A stretch of 64,000 bases of DNA, taken from the NCBI GenBank assembly GCA_032158125.1, contig JASKOT010000036.1, positions 102,088-166,087 of the forward strand, written 5' to 3'. The DNA is from Papiliotrema nemorosa. Its lineage: Eukaryota > Basidiomycota > Tremellomycetes > Tremellales > Rhynchogastremaceae. The stretch's first letter is position 1; every line of letters starts with the position of its first letter. The notes under the pieces are model-generated. The model did no database searches and had not been told where the DNA came from. It worked only from the letters and a program-made list of their open reading frames with translations. A program made the position numbers and the translations under genes. Below, piece after piece: positions 1,788 through 45,183 of this stretch.

Positions 1788-4023
1788 TCAGGAACCCCAA
1801 TTAGTCTCTTCACCACCCGGTGGACCCATGGGCCAGGTCCACCAATCCATGCTTCCTCCAAAAGTATCGCCAGCATCAGCATTACCATGTTCCCCACTCC
1901 ACAGACTGAAAAAGTCGGCAAGATCGACATTTGTATCGCCAAAAACATTGGTAGAGGTGCCGTTCGACTTATCGCCTGAGTGACTTTGTGCAAGACCCAT
2001 CGATTGTAAGCGCGAGGTTTCCAGTTGCGACTTGTATTCAGCTAGACGCTCCTCTGTACCTGAGATCATCCGACCCAGCTCTGTGTCGCATCTGCTGAGA
2101 TTCGCATGTATCGACGAGAGTAACGAGGCGATATTGAGAGTGTCGGGAAGCGGTGATTTCGGGTGCAAATGCTGAAAATAGATGATACCAGTCGAAAGGG
2201 CAACGTAACAAAGCATGACTGCGCGACCAATAGCGGCGGGCCAATGAGCAAGTCTCCAGCTCTCTTCGAGGCAGTTGTTGAGCATACGGATAGACAATTG
2301 AGCGGCTAGCGTCATGGCTTGCAACCATGATGTATGTGTTTGGTCTCCTAGGAGCGGTGAGGGAAGACGATAGATCGACCAGACGTTGCGGGCGGATACC
2401 CACCATTGACAATACGTGATGTGACACAGCAGGTATTCTTTGGACCGGATGTCTAGATCTGAGTGGGAGTGACGTGCGGTAGACTCACTATCTATCGCTT
2501 TCACCGTCCGCAATAAAGCATCAAGGTCATTTGTGCACTCTTTAACGATCTCATTCCCTTTGATGACATCCACGACGGAAGGACTGATGACGCGCTGCAG
2601 ATCCTGCCATGCGCGACTATGCTTGAACAAAATGCTCAAACATTCTTGCTCGTACATGAGATGCCGATCGAGGTCGCATTCCATATGATGCAGTTGAAGA
2701 AAGGCGAGAATTTTAGGTTGGGCCCCCTCGACCAGCACCGGTAACGAAGCCCACGGACAACGACTGTGTGCAAACCTGCAAGGCGTCAGAACACGTACAC
2801 CATACTTAATAACTTTACACATACCATGCGGATCGGTTGATAACACTCATGAACAGTCGGGCGTCGTTGAGTTGCTGCTCTAGGTGACGTACAGGTGTCC
2901 CACTCTCCAGTAATGCCAATAGTCTATCTAGAAAGACAGATTGTCCCATCTCCCTCACTTGAGCATACGCCAATCCGATCATCCTAGAGGCATCCAAATC
3001 GTTCGTGTCAAGACCCGATCCGGGAGGTAGGAGGGATAAGACGAAAGCTGCCATGATGCCCTCCAGACTTGGTCGACATCCGCGATGGTAAGCGTCGAGA
3101 TTCTGTATCAAGTAAGCTTTGAGATTGGCGACTTGAGCTGCAGTGAACAATGGTAATAGATTGGGGCAATGAGTGATATAGTATAGACAGGCGGACACGT
3201 AAAAGGGCTGAGCAGGGATACTGGATCGAACCTGCATCAAATGAGGATGGGGGAAAACCGCAGTGCAATGGTATTTGAAGCTGTCACTTTAGTCTTGGAG
3301 ACCGAAGAGACGAATCCTGAACTTACAGTTGATACGCGGATTCGGCTTGATCCTTGGTGATGATTCCTTCTGCAAGGGGATCTCGCAAACCAAGTTCCCC
3401 TTTACTCTTCATTCCTCTATGAACCAGCCCGAATGATTCTGGATCTGCCCAGCGCCTGTACCATGTCTCATCTCTCTCTTCTCCCCCGGGGACTGGTCTT
3501 CCTTCATCACTTGATCGTACAGTCGGGATGGGCTCGATGGTTGGTGCAGAAGCCGAAGGAGTCTGCGTGTTGGGACCATTGAGAGAGAAATCGAAATGGT
3601 TGGCTGGAGAGCTGTTGGACAGCGTCGCATGGTTTCTAAGATTTTGCACCTCTTTCTCCAGTGTAGCGAGACGGCTCAGAATGGCAGAGAAGTCGTTTGT
3701 ATCATATGTCACCTCTGTCGGGGCAGGGCCAGTAACGTCAGGCTCGCCGGCATGTTTTTTTTCGAGTGAGCAAGCCGTGCCGAGCTGTTTGCATCGATGA
3801 CACCCTCGCCGGTCTATGAGATCGCATTTCGATCTTCGCGCCCGACAAGCGTTGCATGCTGTCGATCCCCTTGTTCTAGCTCGCTTCGTCTGAAAGAATC
3901 GCGCGTCAGCCAAGGCTCACTACCCGACAGACCGGCGGAGCGCGTGAGGTCAATACCACTCACTGCGTGGTTATCACTTGAGCTGGACCCCACATCTGTG
4001 TTGACAGCCTGAGGATATGACAT
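1788..4023 (-). CDS. Zn2Cys6 fungal transcription factor
   Basis: Nuclear DNA-binding regulator. Model: complement(1788..2775, 2825..3280, 3327..3889, 3964..4023), 688 aa, all four junctions in phase with GT-AG ends. The N-terminus holds the binuclear cluster: ACNACRARRSKCD, then CHRCKQLGTAC, preceded by basic residues (TKRARTRG). A coiled-coil-like stretch (ILSRLATLEKEVQNLR) follows, as usual for dimeric family members. The middle part carries the fungal-specific transcription-factor homology domain (about residues 250-550), and the C-terminus is Asn/Gly/Trp rich. The start at 4023 is the first in-frame ATG upstream of the first intron. It lies between the rhamnosidase and a secreted hydrolase, so a role in glycoside utilisation is a reasonable guess but not shown. 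Confidence 0.85.
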
Positions 4024-27131: not shown

Positions 27132-27482
27132 ATGTCAAACGAACAACAGCCCACACTGCTCGGAAGTCACATTCAATATGTCAAGGGAGCCGTAGAGGTG
27201 AGTATTCTTCCCGACAGCACCGGGGCTTTACCGACATTGGGCATCGCGTTTCCAGCTGTTTTCTGACGATCTTAGGAGACGATCGGGGGAGTCACTGGTT
27301 CTTCCGCTTGGCAAGATTCTGGTGCAAAGGACAAGGAGGAGGGGGTACAAGGGATGAAGGCTGCGAGTGCAGATCGAGATCCAGCAAAGGATGGCTATGG
27401 GAAGATCGAGGAGATCGCCGGAAAAGTTACGGGATGCGAGGGGATGGAAGTAGAGGGAGCGGAGAGCAAGAGGCAAGTCTAG
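27132..27482 (+). CDS. CsbD-like stress-response protein
   Basis: Exons 27132..27197 and 27276..27482, 90 aa; the intron is in phase. Small, hydrophilic, charged protein with the CsbD-type pattern IQYVKGAVEETIGGVTGSSAW, then YGKIEEIAGKVTGCEGMEVE. CsbD proteins are general stress proteins in bacteria; small relatives with the same pattern occur in fungi. No catalytic residues are expected. Start chosen because it gives the complete motif. Followed by a 236-bp gap to the convergent FAH-family gene. Confidence 0.75.
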
Positions 27483-27717: not shown

Positions 27718-28542
27718 TCATGAAAGCCAATAACCTCCGTCGAAACGGAACCCGGTGTCACGGTCGACGAGCGGAAAGGAAAGCGAATCGAGAAGTTTAC
27801 CAGCCTTGTCATACGCAAAGGCCTCAATTTTCTGTCCAACGTCGACTCTACCAACCCCTTTCGGGGTGCCGGTCATGATTACGTCGCCTGGGAACAGCGT
27901 GAAGATGCCAGAGATATACGAAACGAGCTGCGGGATAGTGTAGATCAACCCCGACGTGCTTCCTTTCTGGCGTGCGTCCCCGTTGACCTGATACGACATT
28001 AGCCTTAAAAGGTCTCTCATGGGGAAAACGAAGTTACCCTCAACTCCAGGACGACATCATGAGGATCATCGAGAACATCTTTTCCCAAGAATTGCCCTAC
28101 CGCCGCGAATGTGTCGAGACCCTTGCTAATTGCCCATGGATACCCAACCTTCGCAGCGGCGGCTTGCGCATTCTTGGCAGTCATGTCTAGCGCCAGACCT
28201 GAAAGTTATCAAAGTAGCTTTCCCAGAGGAGTTCGACCTGCAGTAACCCGCCACATGCTCATTTGCGTTTGCAACACCTATATCCCGTCCTCCTTTGCCG
28301 ATAACGACTGCTATCTCCACCTCATGATATACTTCACAGCCTCTTGGAATTTCCATCACATCACTGGCCAACGACGAGGTCGGTTTGACAAAGATGAGTG
28401 GTTCTGGAAGCGCCGAATCTTCCGTGAGACCTGGCCAATTGTAGTCGTAACTCTTGCCGACGCCGATGATCTATGTCTGTCAGCAGTTAGAACGAGTATA
28501 AAGAGCTCTCACTTTAGTGCATTTGTCTCGGAAGTCTTTCAT
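27718..28542 (-). CDS. fumarylacetoacetase-family hydrolase (cluster gene 1)
   Basis: Model: complement(27718..27987, 28038..28198, 28248..28470, 28513..28542), 227 aa, in phase; the donor at 28247 (GTTACT) is weak. The FAH C-terminal fold is visible: IIGVGKSYDYNW, LPEPLIFVKPTSSL, the metal ligands in GCEVYHEVEIAVVIGK, AGLALDMTAKN and FTLFPGDVIMTGTPKGVGRV. Length and architecture match acylpyruvases and 2,4-diketo-3-deoxyaldonate hydrolases, which split C-C bonds to give pyruvate. Next to an SDR, lactonase and IlvD dehydratase, the second role is the better guess. Divergent with the SDR over a 189-bp promoter carrying a 20-bp palindrome. Confidence 0.88.
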
Positions 28543-28621
28543 ATCCTCTGTGGTGGAGTGTATGCATATGAAAGCATGGAAGAATGGGCTTATATGGTGC
28601 AGCGGGTACAGCCGAAGCCGC

Positions 28622-28641
28622 CTTTCCGACATGTCGGAAAG
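28622..28641. promoter_or_regulatory. perfect 20-bp palindrome in divergent promoter
   Basis: CTTTCCGACATGTCGGAAAG, identical on both strands, with CGG/CCG half sites (TTTCCG-N6-CGGAAA). It sits 80 bp upstream of the FAH-family start (28542) and 91 bp upstream of the SDR start (28732). A looser CTTCCCGGAAAG follows directly at 28642-28653. Zn2Cys6 dimers typically bind paired CGG triplets, and such a regulator lies in this cluster. Binding is inferred. Confidence 0.6.
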
Positions 28642-28731
28642 CTTCCCGGAAAGATACCCGCACATTGCTTACCATTGGATACAGCTCTTAAAACAGGCCC
28701 ATCAGACTACTCACATACCCTAAACAAGATC

Positions 28732-29704
28732 ATGACGAAAATCGCATTGGTCACTGGAGCCTCGTCAGGCATTGGAAGAGCAAGCGCAATCGCTCTCTCT
28801 AAAGCAGGGTGGACCCTAGTCCTATCCGGTCGCCGCGAAGACGCTTTGCGAGAGACATTGAGTCTCCTAAATGGAGTCGGGTCTTACGTTGTGGGTGATT
28901 TGGCGGATCCTGCAGCTGTCAAAGCCCTCTTCCGGCACGTCGAAAGCAAACATGGTAAGCTGCAACGGCTCAAGGTGTAAGAGGTAGCGCTTGACCATGC
29001 AGGACGTCTAGATCTACTATTCAATGTGCGTTGATCGACTTGACTCCCATATACAACACCCCGTGATTCATGCTTTGACAATCCGCAGAATGCAGGAGTA
29101 CCAAGTCCCAAAAAGCCCCTCGAGGAGATCACTTTCGACGAGTACCGACATGTCTTGGCGGTCAACTTGGACGCAGTGTTCCACTGTTGCCAGGAAGCAA
29201 TATTACTGATGAAGGCGCAAAAGCCACGCGGCGGCAGGTAGGTATCAGCTCGAACGGTGGACTGAAGTCAGGATCATCAACAATGGATCCGTGTCCGCAT
29301 ATGCACCTCGCCCTCATTCCGCCCCGTATACCATCTCGAAACACGCAATTCTAGGCCTTACCCGCTCGATAGCTCTGGATTATCGAGAGTTTGATATCGT
29401 CTGCTCACAAATAGACATTGGTCAGCACCCGAGAGACGCAATTGAGTCGGGCTGACAGATCGTTTCAGGTAATGCACAGTCCGACATGTCTTCCATGAAA
29501 ACCGCTGGAGTCCTCCAAGCAGATGGAAGCAAGAAAGCGGAGCCGTGAGGGCTTCTCTTGCAAGCACCGCTGATCTCTCTTAGGGTTTTTGAAACGGATT
29601 TGGTCGGCGAGACTGTTGCGTATACGGCTGGACTTCCGCTGAGTGTCAACATCTTGACACAGACTCTCATGGCAAGTCATATGCCGTTTGTGGGCAGGGG
29701 TTGA
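28732..29704 (+). CDS. SDR dehydrogenase (cluster gene 2)
   Basis: Exons 28732..28954, 29003..29025, 29089..29237, 29272..29420, 29469..29544, 29584..29704, 246 aa, six exons in phase (exon 2 only 23 nt). NAD(P) motif TGASSGIG at residues 9-16, LDLLFNNAG, the catalytic serine in [10 protein letters not shown] and YTISK as Tyr-x3-Lys. Length and motifs are those of classical SDRs. In the cluster it is well placed to oxidise C4 of a 2-keto-3-deoxy sugar acid (as bacterial L-KDR 4-dehydrogenases do) or C1 of the sugar; the sequence alone does not decide. Shares a divergent promoter with the FAH-family hydrolase, whose substrate the C4 oxidation would make. Confidence 0.88.
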
Positions 29705-29855
29705 GAATCTGTCCATAGCAGAGTCGTTCGAAGTATGTCGAAGATAATTTCTCCATCATGTAAATGATCGATCTCTCATTGGTACTGTTGGTCGGCTGTT
29801 GAGACTACAAGGCGGAGATCAGATGGATCCGTTTAAACACCGAAACCAGACGGGC

Positions 29856-29880
29856 TTTCCGAGGTTTCCGCCCGTTTCCG
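29856..29880. promoter_or_regulatory. three TTTCCG direct repeats upstream of lactonase
   Basis: TTTCCG occurs at 29856, 29865 and 29875, i.e. one helical turn apart, 75-100 bp upstream of the lactonase start. It is the same hexamer as the arms of the palindrome in the FAH-SDR promoter. Role as regulator sites is inferred. Confidence 0.45.
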
Positions 29881-29955
29881 GGTTGCGAATGGCTCGTTCG
29901 GTCTTGTTGGGGTCTACATATCGCGAGGCCATATAGCACACTATGACCTCCAAAC

Positions 29956-31176
29956 ATGACTCGTATATTGGTCGCATCGTACAAGACCTGTGCATCGCTG
30001 TCAGTTGTCGACATCGAGACCGGTGCAGAGACTAGAACAATCGAAACGCCTAGAGGGCCTACTTGGATCACTCAAGCCCCGTCCGCGGCCCACATCTTGG
30101 TCGTCTGCTCCACAGATATCCTTACCCTGGACAACAACCTGAATATAACCTCGACGATAGGCACTTCTGGGAAGCGGCAGGTCCACGGTTGCTGGTCACG
30201 AGAAGAAGACCATGTCCTCATCGTCGATTATGATGCCGGGACTGTCGAGGTTTATCCCTTCGTCGACCATCAACTGCGACCCGCGGCGTGTATCCATCAT
30301 TTTCATGGCCACGGCTCTTATGAACCTCTTCAGGCCTCATCGCATCCCCATCAAGTCATTCCTGGACCAGACAAAAGATACTATATTGCCGACCTCGGCC
30401 TGGATTGGTAAGCTTGCATGAGCCGGCATGACGGGCGGGACTGATAGTAGCGTACACGCCATCAATATGGGTTCTAATGGAGCCATTAAGCATGTTGAGT
30501 CTTACTCAGTGCACAGCGTGTCGGGACCGAGGCACATTGCCTTCCACCCAACAACGCAGACCGTCTATGTCTTGGGGGAGATCGGACTTACCGTGACCAC
30601 GATGGAACTAGCAAGCGATGGCGCGCTGAGACGCGTTGGCCACCCTCTATCGATTGCTCCCAAAGGTCACAGTTCGAAGGCCGGGCTGAACAACGAACTG
30701 GGAGAACGTGGCCTAATGGCATCAGGTAATCCAACTCGGCGTGTCACAGCTAACTTCATCAGCCATACAGATTTCTCAGAGCGCAAATCAATTGTGTACG
30801 TTTTCAAAGGCGATAAAGTTTAGCTAACTCATGCAGATTTGTCCATTAGGAGTCCGCCGAATGCGAATGCCGATTCGATTGTCACCTGTGAACTGGGTAG
30901 CTCGTACCCATATACACCCTCGAATTGTCGGTGGGTTGATCCTCACGGAAAATGCCCACGCGAACTTAGCCTCGACCCCTCTGGCAGACTGCTTGTATCT
31001 TGTAATCAATCATCACGGTCGTGAGTTGTTTGCGGTGTTTATGGACAAAATTTTGGCTCACTTCCAATCATAGCCTGGCTGTATTTCATGTGACTGCTGA
31101 CACCGGCGCCTTGAAATGGAGTAAAGATATCGGACTGTCATCAGGCATCTTGCCTACCGCTATTGTATGGCTGTGA
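29956..31176 (+). CDS. 7-bladed beta-propeller lactonase (cluster gene 3)
   Basis: Exons 29956..30407, 30448..30725, 30763..30795, 30837..31020, 31074..31176, 349 aa, in phase. Sequence pattern of the 6-phosphogluconolactonase/carboxymuconate-cyclase propeller family: repeated strands such as ILVASYKTCASLSVVDIETG, SSHPHQVIPGPDKRYYIADLG, GPRHIAFHPTTQTVYVLGEIG and CPRELSLDPSGRLLVSCNQSS. The last two resemble the conserved 'PRH-FHP' and 'PR-SLDPSG-L' repeats. It would open an aldono-lactone to the free acid, ahead of the dehydratase next door. Intron 1 ends TAGTAG, so splicing could add or drop one residue (exon 2 start 30448 or 30451). No signal peptide, so cytosolic. Confidence 0.85.
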
Positions 31177-31231
31177 CCTTTTGGTCATATCTCACAAATC
31201 CATGCATATCGCCTTGTGTACAGCTCGTCTC

Positions 31232-33232
31232 CTAATCGTCTCTCTCTACGCAGCGGAGGAAGTCAAAGTCGGCCCCTTTGTCTGCTTGCAAAACGCTATT
31301 CTGGTAGAGTTTTTTGTAACCCCTGTCAGCCGTTGCCAATGCCTGAAAGGTGTTTAACCTCCGCTGAAGCTCGACATCCGGAACGTTCAAATGTAGACGC
31401 CTACGCTCCACGTCGAGCTCGATCACGTCTCCGTCCCGGACTGCCCACAATGGACCTCCTACCGCAGCTTCGGGCGCAACATGAAGTACTACAGCACCAC
31501 TGGCCGTCCCACTCATCCGACCATCACTGATTCGTACCATATCCTTGACTCCTTTTTGAGCCAGTTTTTTTGGAATGGGAATGTAGCCAGCCTCCGGCAT
31601 GCCTGGGTGTCCAACAGGACCTATATTCTGCAAGACAAGACTGACTGTTCAGCGGAACGATAACAGGGTTGGGCTTACACGCTATCGGTATCAACCTCAA
31701 GGTCCGGATCGTCGATCCGATTGACCAGATCGACCACTCCAGCGAAGACGATTGCCTTCCCGGTGTGATGTTTGAGATGAGAAGCCATGGCGGACTGCTT
31801 AAGAATGCAGCCTAGAGGCGCGAGGTTACCCTGCAACACTACCAGTGAGGCGGTCCCAGCGAGTGGATTCGCGAGTGGTCGCACGATGTCCTGCCTGAAG
31901 GGTGCGGGACATGCAGCTAGCTCCTCTCCCAAAGTCCTGCCCGTGATCGTTTTGGTGTCCAAGTGCAAGAGCGGGGCTAATTGTCGCAAGATAGTAGGTA
32001 CTCCTCCCGCCTAGTTCAGTTAAGCTCAACACCCTATTCAACCACGACTCGTCTGACCTTGAATAGATCCTCCAGACAATTTAGTCCACTAGGCTTGAGG
32101 TCTACTAGTAAAGGAGTTTTCCGGCCGATCCGGTCAAAGTCTAACAACGGGATCAGCTCAAAATCATGGTCAGCAAGATGAAGGAGGTGAAAAGCAGTCG
32201 GTGGAATGACCCACCATCAAGAGTCAGATCAATACCTGACACCCGGCCAGCAATCGCTAGGAGATGTACAACAGCATTCGTGCTCCCGCCAATGGCTTGT
32301 AGGAGGGTGATGGCGTTCTCGAAAGATTCTCTGGTGAGGATGTCGCTCGGTCGTGGGAGTGCTTTGGCAGCCAATTTGCCCGTCATTTCTCCTAGACGCA
32401 AACGTTGCGACGAGTTTGCAGGCGCTGTCCCCGAGCCCAAGGGTGCGATGCCTAAAACCTCCGTGAGACAAGCCATGGTAGATGCTGTTCCCATCACGCC
32501 GCAAGTCTGTATGGAACGTAAGCACACAGACGACAGGAATCCACAAAAACAACATGAACTAACTCCGGCACTAGGCACGAGCTGATCTCCCACCTGGGCG
32601 ATCTCTTCCAAATCTATCTCATTTGCCCGAAATCTTCCCCAGAACCCTCGACAGTCGGTACAAGCCCCGACGCGTACACCGCGATGTGAACCTGTGACCA
32701 TCGGACCAACCACAAGCTGTATGGCGGGAATGTCTGCAGAGATCGCGCCCATGAGCTGGGCCGGAACCGTTTTGTCACATCCGCCGATGAGGATGACCGC
32801 ATCCATGGGCTGAGCTCTTATCATCTCCTCGGTATCGATTGACATCAAGTTACGAAGAAACATTGAGGTGGGATGAGAGAACGCTTCGTGGACCGAGATG
32901 GTGGGGAATGCTATCGGTAGAGCGCCTTGTAACATTACCCCTCGCTCTACTGCTTGAATGAGCTGAGGCACGTTGGCGTGGCACGGATTGAAACCGCTCT
33001 ATAGGAAGATCAGCTTGCTGCTCCCGATGATCATGCAGACACATACCCCGGTGTTGACGATTCCAACTATCCTGCGATCCAGCGCATCGTCGGAGTACCC
33101 CGCACCCTTTATGAACGCTTTGCGTAGGAAGAGGGAGAATTCGTTGTCACCATAATTGGTCAATCCTGCATTGTTAGATGTATGAGGGGCTGATCAGATC
33201 GACATACCAGAACGCAAGCCCGAGGAGGTCAT
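31232..33232 (-). CDS. IlvD/Edd-family sugar-acid dehydratase (cluster gene 4)
   Basis: Iron-sulfur dehydratase. Model: complement(31232..31640, 31679..32010, 32058..32140, 32215..32506, 32564..32998, 33047..33165, 33208..33232), 564 aa, seven exons in phase. Landmarks: TNYGDNEFSLFLRKAF, GFNPCHANVPQL and GGCDKT and TCGVMGTASTMACL, which supply the three cluster cysteines, HRGVRVGACTD, GGSTNAVVHLLAIAG, TPLLVDLKPSG and IGPVGHPGMPEAG. Family members dehydrate dihydroxy-acids or aldonates to 2-keto-3-deoxy acids. Given its neighbours (lactonase, SDR, FAH hydrolase) a pentonate, hexonate or 6-deoxyhexonate dehydratase is more likely than the branched-chain amino acid enzyme. No mitochondrial presequence is evident. 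Intron 32507-32563 is 57 nt and stop-free, so ORF callers will read through it. Confidence 0.9.
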
Positions 33233-33307
33233 CTTTGACTAGCGCATGCGAGGTCTGTGATGACTTGCATCGCAGCGTTTTGAGTGAAATATCGAGAAGG
33301 GCAAGCG

Positions 33308-33324
33308 TTTCCGTCCGGCGGAAA
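33308..33324. promoter_or_regulatory. TTTCCG-N5-CGGAAA inverted repeat
   Basis: Inverted repeat TTTCCG TCCGG CGGAAA, 76 bp upstream of the IlvD start (33232, minus) and within the divergent region shared with the Zn2Cys6 regulator on the plus strand. Same hexamer arms as the palindrome at 28622, with spacing 5 instead of 6. Confidence 0.5.
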
Positions 33325-33442
33325 GCTAGCCGATGACATCTCTCCTTTTGCAAGAGCGCTCTCCGATTCACCTAATGATCCTTTCCTTGTTTGCCTTTTC
33401 GCAAGGTTATTCACATACCAATCCTGAATCACGAATCCGAGA

Positions 33443-35914
33443 GGGATCCTGAATCCTCACGGAAGCGTACCCGGATCAGGCTCGCGTGCAAACGCTGTAG
33501 ATCTAGGAAGAGCAAGGTCAGGAAGCATTCTAGCAATTTCTTTACTCAGTACTGATACTCTATCTAGTGCAATAACGAGCGCCCATGTAACCTGTGCATC
33601 ATATCGGGCACACCTTGCGAGGATTGGAGACCCGATATAACTGCTGAAACCTCCACGCTGACAGACGCGACCGCGTCGACTGAACATACGCCAGCCGCCG
33701 ATGCGATCAAGGTTCCAGGTCCTATCTGGCCGACTTGTCCACCACCGGATCGATGTCTACGATTAGCATATCCGTATGATACTGTTTATCGGAACGAATC
33801 AGGGTTTCTCAAAGGTCTGGGCATGACTTCTGGACTTGCTTCTCTACACTACCTCGCGGAACACAGCAAGCTCGCAAGGGCTGCCTTGGACGAAAACCCT
33901 ATGTCATCGATCTTCGTCGATATGCCTGCGGATTCCCTTTTCCCTTGGCTTGATCTACCCCCCATGGTAGATGATACGCTCCAACCGCCGAACCGTGAGG
34001 AAGACTTATGGGCTGAGCTGCTGCAACTGAGCGGAGAACCTCGGGTGGGTGATGTCGTTTTGGAATGGGATAGTCACTGACCACCGAAAGGTTTGGTCAC
34101 TGCTGAGACACGCTCTCGATACGATATGCGTGCTGTGGCCGACCTTTATGATAGATGGTTTCATCACCACATGCTATGATCCTTTGAAGCGAAATCGACC
34201 AGACATCATGGCTTTGGTAACGGCGCTTTTAATGAATGCGTTGCGCCAAAGTGCAAAGCGGGAACAAACAGTCGAGCTCTTGACCAACCTGCACAAATTC
34301 TGTGAGGAATCATTCATGATATGCCAGACTGATAACAGACTTTGAACTGCGGAGACGCTTTCCAGCAGAAAATTGGTCAAGCTTGGCCTCCATTCAGGCG
34401 AGTAATGGTCAAATCCTCTAACTGACGAGTAGGCTACCTTCTTTCTGTCTTTACACTGTTTTGGGGATTCCGGAAACAACGGTGTTTCCATGGGGCATTC
34501 AATGATGAACGAAGCAGTGTCTCGTTGCATCGACTCCGGCCTGCACCGACGGTACGTATTCCATCCATCTTCCGCTCTGACATTGAAGCGTGGATGTGTA
34601 TTCCGCTACGTTTAGCACAACGGAAATTGAGGAGCGCAACCGTACCCTGTGGGCGGTGTATTGTGGCGACAAGTAAGAGGAGGCTATCTGTTGTCCCGTG
34701 CTAATCGCAAAAGATTGTCTGCAGCTTATGGCCGACCAGTCATGTTATGCCTTGAAGGTGGGCATATCTGTAATGCATCAGTGGGCTTATCGCAGAAATT
34801 GATGTCGACGAAACATCAATAGATGTGCCTGAATTCAGCGAGCGCAATCCACCTAGCCTTCCGAGCTTGCTTTCCACCTATCGAGCGTTCGTAAGGCTCA
34901 ACATGGTCTTCGAACGCATCGTGCGAAAGATCAATCTCGCCTCGTGTACTTCTTCTTCAGCCATACAACGTATTTGCACAGGCATAAGACGAAGGTGTGA
35001 AACGACCATTCACGAGGACACATGCCGGGCCAATCATGCTTCCTGCCGATTCGAGGAAGAAATCTCGAGCAAGTCTGGGATTGCAGCTGGGAAAGAGTGC
35101 TGATTGTCAGTGCTCAATCATTACCGCGAAATCGATGTTGCGTCTCCAGACCCGAAATTAGAGGACGACAATCTATATCACTGTCAAAGAGAGCGATTGC
35201 GCACACTTGGCGCGTTCTGCAAAGTCTTCGTGTACAGACATATGTCTGCCATTGTGAGTCTAGATGATGCATACGAGCTGACTTTCTGAGCAACTCGGAT
35301 CTTGGGGCCAATGCTGCGGACACCAGCAACATCGACAATATCGTTCTTTGGAGTCGTGATCTACTCAATTCTCAAAAGAAAATCTTGCAACGCCATCAAC
35401 TCACAGGTTGGTTGCTTCAAATCGTATCACTTGGCCCAGTGGCTTACACATGATCCAGATGTTGGCTCGACGTGCAGTTACCAAATCAGTCAGATCGGTC
35501 GGGCATTGATTCCTGCAATTTACCTGCTTAACAGCACAAATGCCGATACGAGCGCGAGGCAAAACGTGTTGGATGCTCTGCATACCTCAATAGGTCTCCT
35601 GCAGGAACTCAGTCTACGTTACCCTGCGTCTCAGCGTTCTCTAGAGATCTTGGAAACCTCCAGACGATCCCTTGGCCTGGAAAGCGCACCTCCGTTAGGA
35701 CCTTTGGCGGGCGTGCAGCCCTCAGAGACGGCCATACTCTTTTCGAGTAATTGTAAGTCACCTGCCTTGGACGAACCAAGACCCTCTGATTGACCTGGAT
35801 TCAGGGATAAGCGACTTGCCTCTGAGCAACCCGCTCGGAGGAGCATTCTTTGCACTGCATGGATCCGAGGCCTCGGATTTCCCATGGCCAGATCCTTTAG
35901 AACCACGAGAGTAG
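33443..35914 (+). CDS. Zn2Cys6 transcription factor of the cluster, 5' end and one frame uncertain
   Basis: Likely pathway regulator. Readable exons: about 33443..33516 and 33568..34044 (cluster LACKRCRSRKSKC then PCNLCIISGTPC, split by an intron), 34091..34301, 34339..34401, 34433..34551, 34616..34672, 34714..34757, 34796 onward, ending with a Ser/Pro-rich exon that stops at 35914. The fungal transcription-factor domain is seen as DTICVLWPTFMIDGF, MNEAVSRCIDSGLHRR and RTLWAVYCGDKLSAAYGRP. Problems: no in-frame ATG precedes the zinc cluster without another intron, the exon 34433-34551 joins one base out of frame with its upstream exon, and the exon structure between 34900 and 35310 is unresolved. 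It may be a frameshifted allele, a sequence error or an unusual splice. Confidence 0.6.
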
Positions 35915-36155
35915 CAAGGCACCCCTCCGGGCGATGCGCATTATTGATCGTTAGAGTGATGTTACAGATGAGACATTGTCATGATGCATGCATAGACCTT
36001 CGAGCACTGTATAAGAGGCAACAATCACTTGGACACATTGAGAGGCTGAACCCCAACTCGGGCCCCCTCGGCGTTCAACGTGTCTATCTCCGCTCGTGTC
36101 CAAGGAATGCCACTCTTCAGACGTTGCTGTGGATATGTCAGCGATGCCCTACAGC

Positions 36156-37430
36156 TTATCTTGGGACACTAACACGAGTTTGCTCAATTTCTATCTCCCC
36201 TGGAAAATATACTCGGTCCACACCATTCATTCTTTGCGATCCTACGACCCGATCATAGAGATACTGCATGCGGGCTTTGAACTCGTCCAATGGGAGGAAC
36301 AAATCGGGTTTGATGGCCATGATGAAGTGACCCACATCCGATTTCTTGGTAGGATCGTATGGACCAACGACATGACCCTGTCTGTCAGTCGGAAACATCG
36401 TTTGAACTTTGCCGCGTACAGCGAATGCGGATCCTGATAGCACCCCTGAGAAAACATCCATAAAGATGGAAAGCGCTGATCCTTTCGGCCTGTAACGGTT
36501 AGTGTATCTTCGGGACCGTACCTCACCCTCCCATTGGCAGCATGACGCCCTCCAAAGCCTTGGCTGGATCGCTCGTTTGATTGCCCTAGCTATCAATACG
36601 ATAGGAAGCGACCGCTTACCTCGCCATCCAAAGCCCAATCCAGAGGAATCGTTTCATTCCGACGAAGTGCTCGGTAGACCTTACTGACCATTAGTACGTC
36701 ACTGTACCGATATTATCGATTGTAACGGCTAACCCTCGGGCTGCGGTCGATGGGGCCATATCTAGTACAAAAGGTATGCCCCCGTCCTTGCCAGGCGCCC
36801 CGGCTGCAATCGGGCTTACTCCCATAAGTTTCTCCTTGCCTCCCCACACGGGCATCTGTGAAAGTCAGGCAGCTTTAGATGAAGTCAGTTGCACTTCTTC
36901 CGCTCACGGCTGGGCTCGAGTTGGTGAACACGAGGGACATCATGTCCTGTCTAGCTGCTTGCAAGACAAAGGACGCCGACATCCCAAAATGGTTCGAATG
37001 CTTAACCGACGCCATGCCTATTCCGTACACCTTGGCCATCTCTATACACTTGCTCATAGCCATGTCCGCGGCGATAAATCCGAAATCTACTCGGCGTTAG
37101 GAAAGATGGCCAGGAGGCCGCTTGAACCCACTATTCGCACCGTCCACCTGGCAGACGACAGGAGTGACTTCTTTAAGGACAGGAACCGCTGTAGGATCGA
37201 GCACCCCTTCGCGGATCCGTTTCATGTAGCTCGGCAATCTGTTGGCCCCTAGGGATGAGCGGTGTATGGTGCTTATGCGGACCATGAGTGTCCACACCCC
37301 GGAGATCCGCTTCTATCAGACATTTGGATACCACATCGGCGTATTCGGAGGAGAGACCGTTGCCTTCCAATACTTCTTTTGTGAACCTCGTCGCTTCCTC
37401 CACAGACACTAGTATTTTTGTCTCTGACAT
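36156..37430 (-). CDS. Ldh2/malate-type 2-hydroxyacid dehydrogenase (cluster gene 6)
   Basis: NAD(P)-dependent oxidoreductase of the MDH type-2/Ldh2 family. Model: complement(36156..36489, 36527..36585, 36620..36683, 36734..36855, 36908..37086, 37132..37248, 37283..37430), 340 aa, seven exons in phase. Landmarks: ADLRGVDTHGANRLPSY with the conserved His, VDGANNFGFIAAD, VKHSNHFGMSASF, VWGGKEKLMGVSPIA, FVLDMAPSTAARGK, GNQTSDPAKALEG and LPMGGPKGSAL. Relatives interconvert 2-keto and 2-hydroxy acids (L-lactate, diketogulonate, ureidoglycolate, cyclic imino acids). In this cluster it could oxidise the hydroxy acid released with pyruvate, or reduce a keto-acid intermediate. Divergent with the MFS gene. 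Confidence 0.9.
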
Positions 37431-37526
37431 GATGGTTCTCACAATATGTGACTGGTTTGATGGTGTATGTGCATCGAAAAGTTGTACATACGTACATAAA
37501 ATAGAGAATCGTCTCGCGGGAACGCA

Positions 37527-37594
37527 GTTCCGATCGAGTTGCGCGTCGGAAACACATCCGAAGCGTTTTTCGGAGACATCCTCGGAGACGGAAA
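37527..37594. promoter_or_regulatory. several CGGAAA/TTCCG half sites in divergent promoter
   Basis: Between the Ldh2-type gene (start 37430, minus) and the MFS permease (start 37766, plus). Half sites: GTTCCG at 37527, CGGAAA at 37547 and CGGAAA at 37589, plus two CGGAGA repeats between. They match the arms of the cluster palindromes. Regulatory role inferred. Confidence 0.4.
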
Positions 37595-37765
37595 GTAATC
37601 ACGTTGTGCTCGTTGCTCGTCTCGCTTCTTACCCCATGTGGAGCTCTTTTGCTCCACACAATGAGCTATAAGAGCCATTCCGCCTCCTTCGTTACCGGGG
37701 AACTCCCTGCTTGACTGCTCGATTCAGTAACAACTCCAATTCGCTGCAGAAACACTGGCACCACC

Positions 37766-39423
37766 ATGGATTCTCAAGTAAACGAAAAGAAGTTCTCCGA
37801 ACAGATCGAAGACGCTGTTCCCCGGGTAGAACTCCCTGTGTTTAGCGCGGAGGAGGAAGAAAGATTGATTCGCAAGCTTGACCGCCGCATCTTGCCATGG
37901 ATTATGCTGCTGTATATGGTGAGATGATTTGTCGATGGCACAGACTAAAGCTGACGAATCCAGCTGTCGTACCTCGATCGGGGCAATCTTGGAAACTCAG
38001 TTATTTTGGGCTTGAAGAAAGATCTCCGACTGAAAGGGACGGAATACGGTAAGGCTGCTAAAGAGTCGGATTCAGACTCAGCTGAATCATCCGCAGAATG
38101 GGCTAGCGCCATATTCTACGTTGCCACGTTCCTTTTTGGGACCATAGGTGGACTTATGCTCAAGATTGTAAAGCCAAGTTACTACATGGCTGGCTGCTGC
38201 ATTGGATGGGGCGGTCTCGCCATGGCACAAGCGGGCGCACACAACTTTTCCGGTCTTGCCGCCACCCGTTTCTTCCTCGGATTTTTCGAGGCGTCATTTG
38301 CACCAGGCTGTGCCTTTTACCTCTCGTTTTGGTATACGCGGGTGAGTAGTTGGGCTCATGATGAGTCGCCTCAACGAAACATGCGCTGACCGTATTCAGG
38401 ATGAGCTGACGTTGCGAATTGCAGCCTATGCCGGGACTAGCGCTTTAGCGGGTGTCATTGGCGGGCTTATTTCGTATGGGTTTAGCTTCGCCGATGACAA
38501 TACTTTGCACAAATGGCAATGGCTATTTCTTGCTGAAGGAGCCCCGACTATCCTTGTTGGCTTCGCTACCATTTGGGTCCTGCCCGATCGTCCCGAACAA
38601 GGCCGGCCGCGAGGATTCTCAAATGCCGAGCACGATATCGCTCTCGCTCGCCGTCGACGTCATGTCAGGAACGCAGATGAGGGAGGTATCAATTGGGCTC
38701 AAGTCAAAGGGTGTGTCACAAACGTGCACACAATCGACACGCTGACTAGTCAGTGCTTTCGCTGATTATCGTCTATGGCTTTTCGCTGTGATTTACTCTG
38801 GCCTGTCGCTGTCCCTTGCGGTCATAGCAATCTTCCTCCCCTCTTTGCTCACTGTCATGGGCTACAAGAGCTACAGAGCCAATCTCATGACGGCGCCACC
38901 GTATGCCGTCGGATATATCGGTCTGCTTGTCGTGTCATGGCTTGCAGGTCGCTATCGCCAAAGAGCGATTTTTGTGATCTTTGCCGCCGTCATCGGAGGA
39001 ACCGGTTACCTCATTGTTGGGCTCAGTCCCGTGCATATTGTCGGTCTCCGGTATGCTGGAGCTTTCCTAGTCGTCGCCGGCACATATTGGTCATTCCCGG
39101 TTGTGCTCGCATGGGTCGCCAACACATTTGCGGCCGATTCAAAAGCCGGCACAGGACTTGGAGCCGTCATCGCTGTAACGCATGCTGTCGGGGTTGCCGC
39201 AGCACACATCTACCCCTCAACGGAAGCCCCTCAATATAGAAAGGGCTCCATTGTTTCTGCGGTCCTCATGTTTCTTGCAGCGTTCTGCGCGCTTGGCATG
39301 CGGATCCTGTTGAAGCGGGAGAATTCGAGACGTGACCGTGCGCAACCAGAAAATGCTGTAGGCGACGGTGTTGAAATGGGCGATGAAGCTGACAAGGACC
39401 CCAACTTCCGGTACATTCTCTAA
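37766..39423 (+). CDS. MFS permease, anion:cation symporter type (cluster gene 7)
   Basis: Exons 37766..37918, 37964..38048, 38097..38341, 38400..38710, 38754..39423, 487 aa, in phase. Start in a good context (CACCATGG). Dal5/ACS-type signatures: RKLDRRILPWIMLLYM, LSYLDRGNLGNSVILGLKKD, WASAIFYVATFLFG, ATRFFLGFFEASFAPGCAFYL and QWLFLAEGAPTILVGF; a second half with VVLAWVANTFAADSKAGTGL. About 12 membrane helices. ACS members import carboxylates, vitamins and small anions, not neutral sugars, which fits uptake of an aldonate or similar acid for the neighbouring enzymes. Charged C-terminal tail. Confidence 0.9.
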
Positions 39424-43657: not shown

Positions 43658-45183
43658 ATGGCCACCGAGGCTCTAATCCCTCAGCAGCGACGTGATAAAC
43701 GGGAAGGAGGTATCAGCGCCGTCTTCACCAGCTTTTCCGGCAAAAAAGCGCAACCATTGCCTTCACGTTTCCGAGACCTCAAGAGAAATCTTACTGTGGG
43801 TTTTGAGGAGAAGTTGCAAAAGTCTTGGGACGATCTGGTAGAGGTGCTCAAAGTGAGAACCGAGGAGGTCGCGCACAAGAGGGAATCGGTGCGTTGACGG
43901 TTCGTAATGCATCATCGCTCATCTTAGATCATTCCGCAAATCGACTTCAAGGACATTGCCGGTGGAACCGTTCCCTCAGACAGAATCAAAGCTCTTAGCG
44001 ACACGGGAGTCGTTGTGGTACGCAATGTCATGCCCAAGGAAGTTACCGAAAAACTTCTGCGAGATGTCAGGCACTATTTCGGCAGACATCCTATGAAGGG
44101 CTTTCCGTCGCCAGCTGAGAAAAAGGTGGTGTATGAATCATACTGGAGCGCGTCTCAAGTAAAAGCTCGATCACATCCAAACATGCTCGCGACACAGATA
44201 CGTCGCAGACAGGGACCAACGAAGTGCGTACACCCAAATGATGAAGAGCACTGAACTGACTCGTGGAGTCGACCTCTCTACTCCTCTGACCTATTGCGAT
44301 CGAGTGCAGTTGAGACCTCCGGGAGACAAACATTTTGCCCTGGCGCCTCATGTGGATGGAGGCGGGGTGGAGAGATGGGAGGACAAGGCATACAACCACG
44401 TGTACCGGGACATCTTCAGAGGCGAAGTGAGTTTTCATCCGCGACTCATTTGTCCTCGCCTTATTTTCAAAGTGGAAGAAATATAACCCATGGGATCTCA
44501 CGGGTCGACTGGACGCAAATATGAACTTATACAATTCGCCAGGAGGTTGTAGCGTCTTTCGGGCTTTCCAGGGATGGCTCGGTCTGTCCAAACACGGACC
44601 ACAGCAGGGAACCTTAGTCGTTCATCCTATCCTGCAGCCTTCTACAGCTTATTGGATGCTCCGACCGTTCTTCGAGCCAACGACTAAAGGCTCGCTCGAT
44701 GGCTGGAAGTTTACCTTGGAAGATGACAATAGCGACGTCTTTCTCCATGGAGCCAATCCGGGTACTTCACAGGAGCACAATCCGGATCTACACCCGCACC
44801 TGCGCCTTAACGAAACGATGATTCCTTATCCTACGGTAGAGCCTGGAGATATCGTCTTCTGGAGTGCGGATACGATCCACGGTACGGAGCATGACAATAC
44901 CAATGACATTGACGCCTGCGTGTTTTACATCCCAACGGTACCTTTGACAGACAACAATGCCGCATATATCGCACAGCAAAGAGACGCTTTCCTCAAGGGG
45001 GTCCCTCCGCCAGACTTTCCCGGAGGCGCCGGAGAATCAAGCTATGACGATCGGGGAAAGCCTCAAGATGTGCAGTCTGTGGCAGGCAAAAGAGCCATGG
45101 GCATCGATCCTTTATTGTTGGAGGGGACTGATATGCAAAAGTCGTTGGCTAAACGTGCCAACCAGATTTGGGGCTATCTGTAG
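43658..45183 (+). CDS. DUF1479-family putative Fe(II)/2-oxoglutarate oxygenase
   Basis: The start at 43658 (MATEALIPQQRRDKREGG) fits the family; an in-frame ATG lies at 43541. Recognisable DUF1479 text in order: KREGGISAVFTSFSG, IIPQIDFKDIAG, TGVVVVRNVMPKE, YESYWSASQVKARSHPNMLA, PLTYCDRVQLRPPGDKHFAL, APHVDGGGVERWED, YNPWDLTG, FRAFQGWLGLS and IVFWSADTIHGTEHDN. The His-x-Asp and distal His of the last two are the likely iron ligands. Clear introns: about 43893-43927 and about 44427-44471. The stretch 44190-44270 cannot be joined in one frame with a normal intron that I can find, so the model there is uncertain. Function of the family is poorly known. Confidence 0.72.

Follow-up and report, generated by a model that had tools for sequence, protein, structure and literature searches.

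What do seven neighbouring fungal genes achieve together when a sugar-acid dehydratase, a short-chain dehydrogenase (SDR) and a protein of the FAH family stand side by side, and does their pathway pass through a diketo-acid hydrolase as in bacteria? We examined this question for a stretch of 64,000 nucleotides from Papiliotrema nemorosa (positions 102,088 to 166,087 of contig JASKOT010000036.1, hereafter the window), which forms the end of its contig (C36) in a genome of 19.2 Mb and 68 contigs. Between positions 27718 and 39423 lie genes for the FAH-family protein (FAH), the SDR, a lactonase (LAC), an IlvD/Edd dehydratase (IlvD), a Zn2Cys6 regulator, an Ldh2-type hydroxyacid dehydrogenase (Ldh2) and an MFS permease. 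The reading we favour, with a probability of about 40%, is that of a co-regulated and conserved cluster that degrades an aldose or aldonate through a 2-keto-3-deoxyaldonate to pyruvate by a non-phosphorylative route. It builds on enzyme families, the co-location of three of the genes and a promoter element, all read from the sequence, from which we infer the pathway steps.

Co-location and a shared promoter element

Gene models built by hand from three-frame translations, and then checked on the DNA by splice search, recovered all seven genes in the order and on the strands given by the initial annotation, which had proposed a cluster with its own importer and regulator; Pfam confirmed the families it named. 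The SDR, LAC, IlvD, Ldh2 and permease genes are open spliced models with GT-AG introns, and the FAH model is open as well, with one GC-AG intron preferred to a GT-AG alternative that would shorten the protein by two residues. The Ldh2 gene is longer than first annotated, its last exon (36025-36126) carrying it 131 bases past the proposed end at 36156 to a true end at 36025. Pfam matches reached 153.8 bits for FAH (FAA_hydrolase), 152 for the SDR (adh_short), 135 for LAC (Lactonase), 396 for Ldh2 (Ldh_2), 112 for the permease (MFS_1) and, from exon pieces of IlvD, 230 (ILVD_EDD_N) and 134 (ILV_EDD_C). The zinc cluster of the regulator, split by an intron ahead of 33568, reads as a full C-x2-C-x6-C-x5-C-x2-C-x6-C after short-intron removal, and its joined exons match Zn_clus (PF00172) with 36 bits. 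The closest NCBIfam model to the permease is the D-galactonate transporter (TIGR00893, 42 and 30 bits in two pieces, far below the cut-off of 395), and the closest equivalog to Ldh2 is sulfolactate dehydrogenase (234 bits, below the cut-off of 500).

Repeats of TTTCCG/CGGAAA were first seen by eye, and every hexamer (2080) was then tested across four promoter regions (985 bp: FAH/SDR, before LAC, IlvD/regulator and Ldh2/MFS). CGGAAA/TTTCCG was the most enriched of all, with 10 copies against 0.68 expected (44 in the whole 64 kb; binomial p 2.9e-9, ~6e-6 after correction), and no other hexamer occurred twice or more in every one of the four promoters. None of 200,000 random placements gave ten copies, the maximum being nine. 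At least three half-sites within 100 bp occurred at three places in the 186,337 bp examined, two of them in the cluster and one at contig C9. The palindrome TTTCCG-N3-8-CGGAAA is not enriched genome-wide, since the 19.2 Mb hold seven such places against five for the reversed control pattern; two of the seven fall within the cluster, for which, by our own arithmetic, the chance in 11.7 kb is ~8e-6. Zn2Cys6 proteins bind CCG/CGG triplets of this kind. The spacing is unequal at the two cluster palindromes (6 vs. 5), which is unusual for a single dimer. Taken together, the cluster is probably co-regulated, and the Zn2Cys6 protein is likely the regulator that binds the CGGAAA element. Two other palindromes mark no clear regulon members, one at C53 inside an open reading frame and one at C28 behind a sugar transporter (both judged by eye).

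Co-location in other fungi was compared for FAH, Ldh2 and IlvD. The FAH search returned 170 proteins at E <= 0.001 (best 120 of 170 listed), headed by Kwoniella sp. B9012 (54%, V866_000677) and Meredithblackwellia eburnea (55%, partial), and the Ldh2 search returned 5284 at E <= 0.001 among 8000 scored (best 120 listed), headed by Meredithblackwellia (71%), Kwoniella sp. B9012 (68%, V866_000675) and, third, Kwoniella heveanensis. Past these three, the named Ldh2 matches among those listed are mostly Ascomycota and mostly 63-68% identical. In Kwoniella B9012 the FAH and Ldh2 locus tags are two apart, and the FAH, Ldh2 and IlvD matches all lie on an 18217905-base contig; in Meredithblackwellia all three lie on a 2403475-base contig (in both cases contigs of equal size were taken to be one). 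Kwoniella and Meredithblackwellia come from different subphyla. The three genes thus recur together, as the initial annotation had expected of a real cluster, and with the common promoter element this co-location suggests that the seven genes probably form one unit. A point against a fixed pathway is that only 2 of the 18 named IlvD-bearing fungi, all basidiomycetes, recur among the FAH matches, Kwoniella sp. B9012 and Meredithblackwellia (best 120 listed for each search), so IlvD appears more widely spread than the cluster; the FAH search could miss fast-evolving FAH genes. The closest IlvD rows come from Vanrija, Kwoniella, Cutaneotrichosporon and Kockovaella, all Tremellomycetes.

The dehydratase and its possible substrates

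The best PDB match of IlvD is the L-arabinonate dehydratase 9evv (500 bits), which we take, also from the accessible part of PMC9314677, to be a Rhizobium enzyme; galactonate dehydratase follows at 322 bits and the first ordinary dihydroxy-acid dehydratase chain (6nte) at 282 bits, with 8ej0, named a dihydroxyacid dehydratase, near the top at 493 bits. Among NCBIfam models IlvD passes only PRK06131 (777 over 539), a subfamily that carries no functional assignment, falling below the cut-offs for L-arabinonate dehydratase (620 under 882) and the ilvD equivalog (413 under 618). We reject a branched-chain role on this PDB ranking and these scores, and the sugar-acid type proposed by the initial annotation stands. 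Bacterial relatives are 63-67% identical among the matches listed. A 46-row tree places the window IlvD and all 18 fungal rows in one clade (100/100) beside proteobacterial rows, a clade that also takes in four metagenome rows. A recent transfer of a bacterial operon is unsupported, given this single fungal clade and the lack of the gene set at 80 bacterial IlvD loci (E <= 1e-10): within them we found a lactonase at none, Ldh2 at 2, an SDR at 5 and FAH at 7. When the bacterial neighbours were clustered by their open reading frames, many of the frames proved antisense, and the grouping served only as a loose guide.

According to the accessible part of PMC9314677, sugar-acid dehydratases are marked by Glu at 138, Gly at 261 and an SGTA motif, and accept only 2R,3S acids. 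The window IlvD carries all three marks (positions mapped from motifs), keeping Cys54, Cys122, Cys195, Glu86, Gly199 (the fourth residue after Cys195) and MSGTASG at 471. If the 2R,3S rule holds, L-arabinonate, D-galactonate, D-fuconate, D-xylonate or D-gluconate would fit this enzyme, and L-rhamnonate, L-fuconate and D-arabinonate would be disfavoured. L-rhamnonate is 2R,3R; for D-arabinonate and D-xylonate the descriptors are given in PMC9314677 (accessible part). On this basis the substrates first favoured for the locus (L-rhamnose, L-fucose and D-arabinose) lose ground, as their acids are not of the 2R,3S type that the family reportedly needs. Weighing against this substrate range, the sugar-acid dehydratases are described as sharing a fully conserved C-terminal His that reaches the neighbouring active site (PMC11316719, accessible part), and the window IlvD ends in FLRCVERDD, without it, so that the 2R,3S rule may not apply to it. 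No His stands among the last four residues in 116 of 121 IlvD sequences (the window and 120 listed relatives) or at 78 of the 80 bacterial loci; of the other two, one has the His and one counted as not found.

Proposed pyruvate formation and its rival explanations

In the pathway that we favour, the cluster would import an aldonate or aldonolactone or work on an aldose, which the NADP-type SDR would oxidise at C1 (or it might invert a stereocentre), and the beta-propeller lactonase would open the lactone. IlvD would then dehydrate a 2R,3S aldonate, of the L-arabinonate, D-galactonate, D-fuconate, D-xylonate or D-gluconate type, to the 2-keto-3-deoxyaldonate, whose cleavage would give pyruvate and a short aldehyde or hydroxyacid, with Ldh2 handling the short hydroxy or keto acid. 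Within the cluster, the Mg-enolate step that forms pyruvate would fall to the FAHD1-derived FAH as the candidate enzyme, and an HpcH/HpaI aldolase encoded at C9 may share or own this step; cleavage may thus be due to an FAHD1-type lyase, a hydrolase or an HpcH aldolase. The initial annotation had called the cluster complete; for the pathway this is an interpretation, as the genes for C-C cleavage are candidates and a single SDR must serve as either first or fourth enzyme.

Several lines of evidence tie FAH to FAHD1 rather than to the LRA6-like diketo-hydrolases with which it had been expected to group. Its best PDB match is FAHD1 (151 bits), with LRA6 15th of 24 (105 bits), and the NCBIfam LRA6 model gives 124 bits, under 500. 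In a tree of 76 rows, the window FAH, those of Kwoniella and Meredithblackwellia and a paralogue from contig C57 of the Papiliotrema genome form a clade (100/99), which a 99/89 branch groups with FAHD1 and separates from four rows automatically named L-rhamnonate or L-fuconate hydrolase; this is the placement that the initial annotation had named as speaking against itself. The position of the C57 row is unsure, since its sequence was pieced together by hand and its branch is long. By alignment with human FAHD1, the window FAH keeps the metal ligands E60, E62 and D91 and the network residues K39, Q98 and K112, as do LRA6-like rows for the ligands and the Lys-Asp-Lys/Gln network. The lid differs: it reads KSYDYNWPG in the window, KSYTYNWPG in Kwoniella and KSYRHAWPT at C57 (the Meredithblackwellia record is without this part), so that the His and the Glu, each present in 31 of 34 aligned relatives, are replaced by N and G in the window and Kwoniella and by A and T in the C57 paralogue. 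The genome also carries a canonical FAHD1 at C11, with GRNYADHAKE.

In FAHD1, a His30-Glu33 dyad is proposed to generate the nucleophilic water for hydrolysis, and K43-D102-K123 with Q109 are proposed for enolate chemistry (PMC8398924, accessible part). With the dyad lost and the other residues kept, hydrolysis by this mechanism is less likely, pyruvate-enolate chemistry would be retained, and retro-aldol cleavage (Route I) is, in our view, at least as likely as hydrolysis (Route III). The protein looks like a repurposed FAHD1-type paralogue without the two residues thought necessary for hydrolysis. It is tempting to go further and see in it a FAHD1 duplicate that became a metal-dependent 2-keto-3-deoxyaldonate lyase, with retro-aldol, pyruvate-enolate chemistry, and that works with a bacterial-related IlvD in an undescribed basidiomycete pathway, although we consider this specific version unlikely. 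We know of no FAH-fold aldolase, and a lyase role would therefore be new chemistry. Other observations weigh in the same direction. The role of the His-Glu pair is itself a proposal, with essential residues still to be demonstrated according to the same source (PMC8398924, accessible part). Glu27 in the window protein stands three residues past the site where the Glu has been replaced, and in the C57 paralogue a His directly precedes, by one residue, the site of the missing His, so that the pair may have been rearranged rather than lost; an earlier alignment had placed the lid gap elsewhere.

Ldh2 bears on both versions. A second Ldh2, a single open frame, lies at C57 beside the atypical dyad-less FAH, an MFS permease and a PF04909 amidohydrolase, together with a Zn2Cys6-like frame and a D-2-hydroxyacid dehydrogenase-like frame that reaches the contig end (L109:8890-9991, L110:404-8909). 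These are distant paralogues only (Ldh2 42%, FAH 35%, MFS 36-37%), and no CGGAAA/TTTCCG half-site clusters occur at C57. The repeated pairing suggests that FAH and Ldh2 act in one pathway, which fits a lyase and a hydrolase alike.

The strongest alternative to our favoured pathway is a diketo-hydrolase route (Route III), in which oxidation of the 2-keto-3-deoxyaldonate at C4 by the SDR yields a 2,4-diketo acid that FAH splits hydrolytically into pyruvate and one of glycolate, lactate or glycerate, the hydroxyacid then being oxidised by Ldh2. Such a pathway is established in bacteria, with a hydrolase that uses His83 and Glu86 (PMC6336799), and FAHD1 can hydrolyse acylpyruvates (PMC8398924; PMC13406643; accessible parts); the pairing of FAH with Ldh2 in Kwoniella and again at C57 also speaks for it. 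Four of the 80 bacterial IlvD loci (L021, L023, L045 and L078; Pseudomonas and Stutzerimonas) have an FAH gene directly behind IlvD; these genes are 32-41% identical to the window FAH, and their matches lie no more than ~200 bases from where IlvD ends. That GRNY..H..E is kept in all four suggests that IlvD and a dyad-bearing FAH can go together in bacteria, a point against the lyase. In the window and Kwoniella, by contrast, N and G stand where the bacterial hydrolase has its His and Glu.

The SDR argues in the same sense. It has the Ser-Tyr-Lys triad (Tyr151, Lys155 and the Ser in NNGSVSAY), and its three best PDB matches are generic SDR entries (265, 262 and 237 bits, the next at 108; best 60 of 612). 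NAD-dependent L-KDFDH enzymes have Asp and a hydrophobic residue at the end of strand 2, and the patterns of all four L-KDFDH types start with Arg at position 148, though putative members with other residue pairs are mentioned (PMC11199699, accessible part). The window SDR has neither the Arg148 nor the NAD-type Asp of types 1-4 but Ser148 and an NADP-type G33-R34 pair. For this reason we find an NADP-linked aldose dehydrogenase acting at the first step more plausible than a 4-dehydrogenase, and such an enzyme would account for the lactonase, whereas Route III would leave no gene for the first oxidation. Thus, of the bacterial-style pathway initially proposed, the IlvD-FAH neighbourhood at four of 80 loci speaks in favour, while the FAHD1-clade FAH without its dyad, the SDR without the Arg/NAD signature and the lack of the full set at bacterial loci do not. 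The diketo-hydrolase reading is weakened by these comparisons, and we regard it as a serious but doubtful possibility.

Eight annotated plasmid regions showed mixed sugar-acid neighbourhoods, with tripartite transporters and DapA-type proteins, and pointed to no substrate. In Loktanella (L144:6962-13597) an IlvD relative is followed by Ldh-family oxidoreductase, DapA-type, altronate dehydratase family and lactate racemase domain proteins; in Paraburkholderia an FAH-family gene lies ~2 kb behind IlvD, in Azospirillum one lies ~7 kb from an SDR, and in Rhizobium lentis an SDR is beside denD.

FAH might instead not cleave a C-C bond at all, acting as a dehydratase towards 2-oxoglutarate semialdehyde (Route II) or as a tautomerase or decarboxylase repair enzyme, which we hold to be improbable. 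FAHD enzymes do have high oxaloacetate tautomerase activity (PMC10825186, accessible part) and FAH-type 2-keto-3-deoxypentonate dehydratases exist, but these use a specific Glu (PMC6336799), and the stretch after Asp91 in the window FAH (KNAQAAAAKVG) is without Glu, though the Glu of those dehydratases may lie elsewhere; nor is there an aldehyde dehydrogenase among the seven cluster genes.

Returning to the favoured pathway, the aldolase at C9 is a candidate for its cleavage step outside the cluster. At this locus (C9:37466-38909; L147:966-2409) the promoter element separates another Zn2Cys6 gene, apparently divergent, from the HpcH/HpaI aldolase gene (minus strand, C9:37469-38029 plus additional exons), with four half-sites within 86 bp and one in the remainder of the 9 kb examined. 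One exon of the aldolase matches 2-keto-3-deoxy-acid type aldolases in the PDB with up to 83 bits. The aldolase is a possible regulon member in trans, a lead rather than a proof: the palindrome was found after the pattern had been chosen, the locus has a Zn2Cys6 gene of its own that could own the site, and the genome has 17 HpcH/HpaI matches, all of which caution against the link. Beyond the aldolase, a reading frame of an FMN-type hydroxyacid dehydrogenase was seen by eye.

Two basidiomycetes that keep the first and last enzymes of the L-rhamnose pathway are reported to be without orthologues of its lactonase and dehydratase, and alternative enzymes have been suggested (PMC9781776, accessible part); the cluster offers possible substitutes for the missing two, together with a putative regulator, the DNA element that it may bind and a small set of genes that may form its regulon. 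That it is indeed the basidiomycete L-rhamnose pathway, with the SDR, PF10282 lactonase and IlvD in place of LRA1-LRA3 and the C9 aldolase with its four promoter half-sites as LRA4, is nevertheless the least probable reading, because the dehydratase family is reported to accept 2R,3S acids only (PMC9314677, accessible part), unlike L-rhamnonate, the rhamnosidase is 27 kb away with both half-site clusters of the window inside the sugar-acid cluster, and FAH would be left without a role.

Table 1. Genes of the cluster and candidate regulatory elements (positions in the window).
Feature	Position	Strand	Basis or content
FAH, FAHD1-clade FAA_hydrolase paralogue, 229 amino acids	27718..28542	-	splice model, Pfam, PDB, tree
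FAH exons	28513-28542, 28242-28470, 28038-28198, 27718-27987	-	splice model
SDR, short-chain dehydrogenase, 246 amino acids, six exons	28732..29704	+	splice model, Pfam, PDB
LAC, 7-bladed beta-propeller lactonase (PF10282), 342 amino acids, five exons	29956..31176	+	splice model, Pfam
IlvD/Edd sugar-acid-type dehydratase, 564 amino acids, seven exons, PRK06131	31232..33232	-	NCBIfam, PDB, tree
Zn2Cys6 regulator	33443..35914 (coordinates of the initial annotation)	+	zinc-cluster exons and later open stretches
Ldh2 hydroxyacid dehydrogenase (PF02615), 368 amino acids, eight exons	36025..37430	-	splice model, Pfam
MFS permease, 487 amino acids, five exons	37766..39423	+	Pfam, NCBIfam, splice model
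FAH/SDR element	28623..28652		TTTCCG 28623, CGGAAA 28635 and 28647; palindrome 28623-28640
Element before LAC	29856..29880		three TTTCCG direct repeats
IlvD/regulator element	33308..33324		TTTCCG-N5-CGGAAA
Ldh2/MFS elements	37547..37594		CGGAAA at 37547 and 37589
DNA proposed as candidate target of the Zn2Cys6 domain			TTTCCGACATGTCGGAAA

Around the cluster, a small CsbD-like reading spliced by eye (27132-27480; 32.5 bits, below the 40-bit cut-off) lies directly beside it, and a PF07350 (Gig2-like) protein (44431-45183, 268 bits) lies ~5 kb past the permease. At 496-1734 an open frame resembles, by eye, the end of a GH78 alpha-L-rhamnosidase, followed by Zn2Cys6-like frames at 1788-3916; no CGGAAA/TTTCCG half-site cluster occurs near the GH78-like frame.

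Comparison with known systems

A literature search that covered the openings of abstracts, with most subscription-journal papers outside it, met no fungal pathway of IlvD, SDR and FAH, and the fungal pathways that it did meet end in aldolases (PMC12370193; PMC9781776, accessible part). The cluster is thus probably a new fungal enzyme combination. Compared with FAHD1, an oxaloacetate tautomerase/decarboxylase and acylpyruvase, the window FAH shares the clade, metal ligands and network residues and differs in the replaced lid His and Glu and in its place within a sugar-acid cluster. Whether eukaryotic FAHD1-type proteins act on sugar-derived diketo acids is described as an open question (PMC13406643, accessible part), on which this paralogue bears. 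With the IlvD/EDD sugar-acid dehydratases RlArDHT, CcXylDHT and PuDHT, the window IlvD has in common the Fe-S Cys ligands, the Glu at the variable Mg position, Gly 261 and SGTA, and it departs from them in its PRK06131 subfamily and the missing C-terminal histidine.

The bacterial Route III systems (LRA5/LRA6; Herbaspirillum C785_RS13675/RS20555/RS20550) likewise combine an SDR, an FAH-superfamily protein and a sugar-acid dehydratase with pyruvate as product (Herbaspirillum, PMC6336799). The window differs from them in its FAHD1-clade FAH without the His-Glu pair, in an SDR of another subfamily without Arg148, and in the addition of Ldh2, a beta-propeller lactonase, a fungal regulator and introns. 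The fungal L-rhamnose pathway (LRA1-4, LraA-D) also degrades a sugar oxidatively, under Zn2Cys6 control and with the same SDR-lactonase-dehydratase order of chemistry. That pathway has an amidohydrolase-type lactonase and an enolase-type dehydratase, whereas the window has a PF10282 lactonase and an IlvD dehydratase, and the cluster itself holds no HpcH aldolase, the one at C9 sharing its promoter element.

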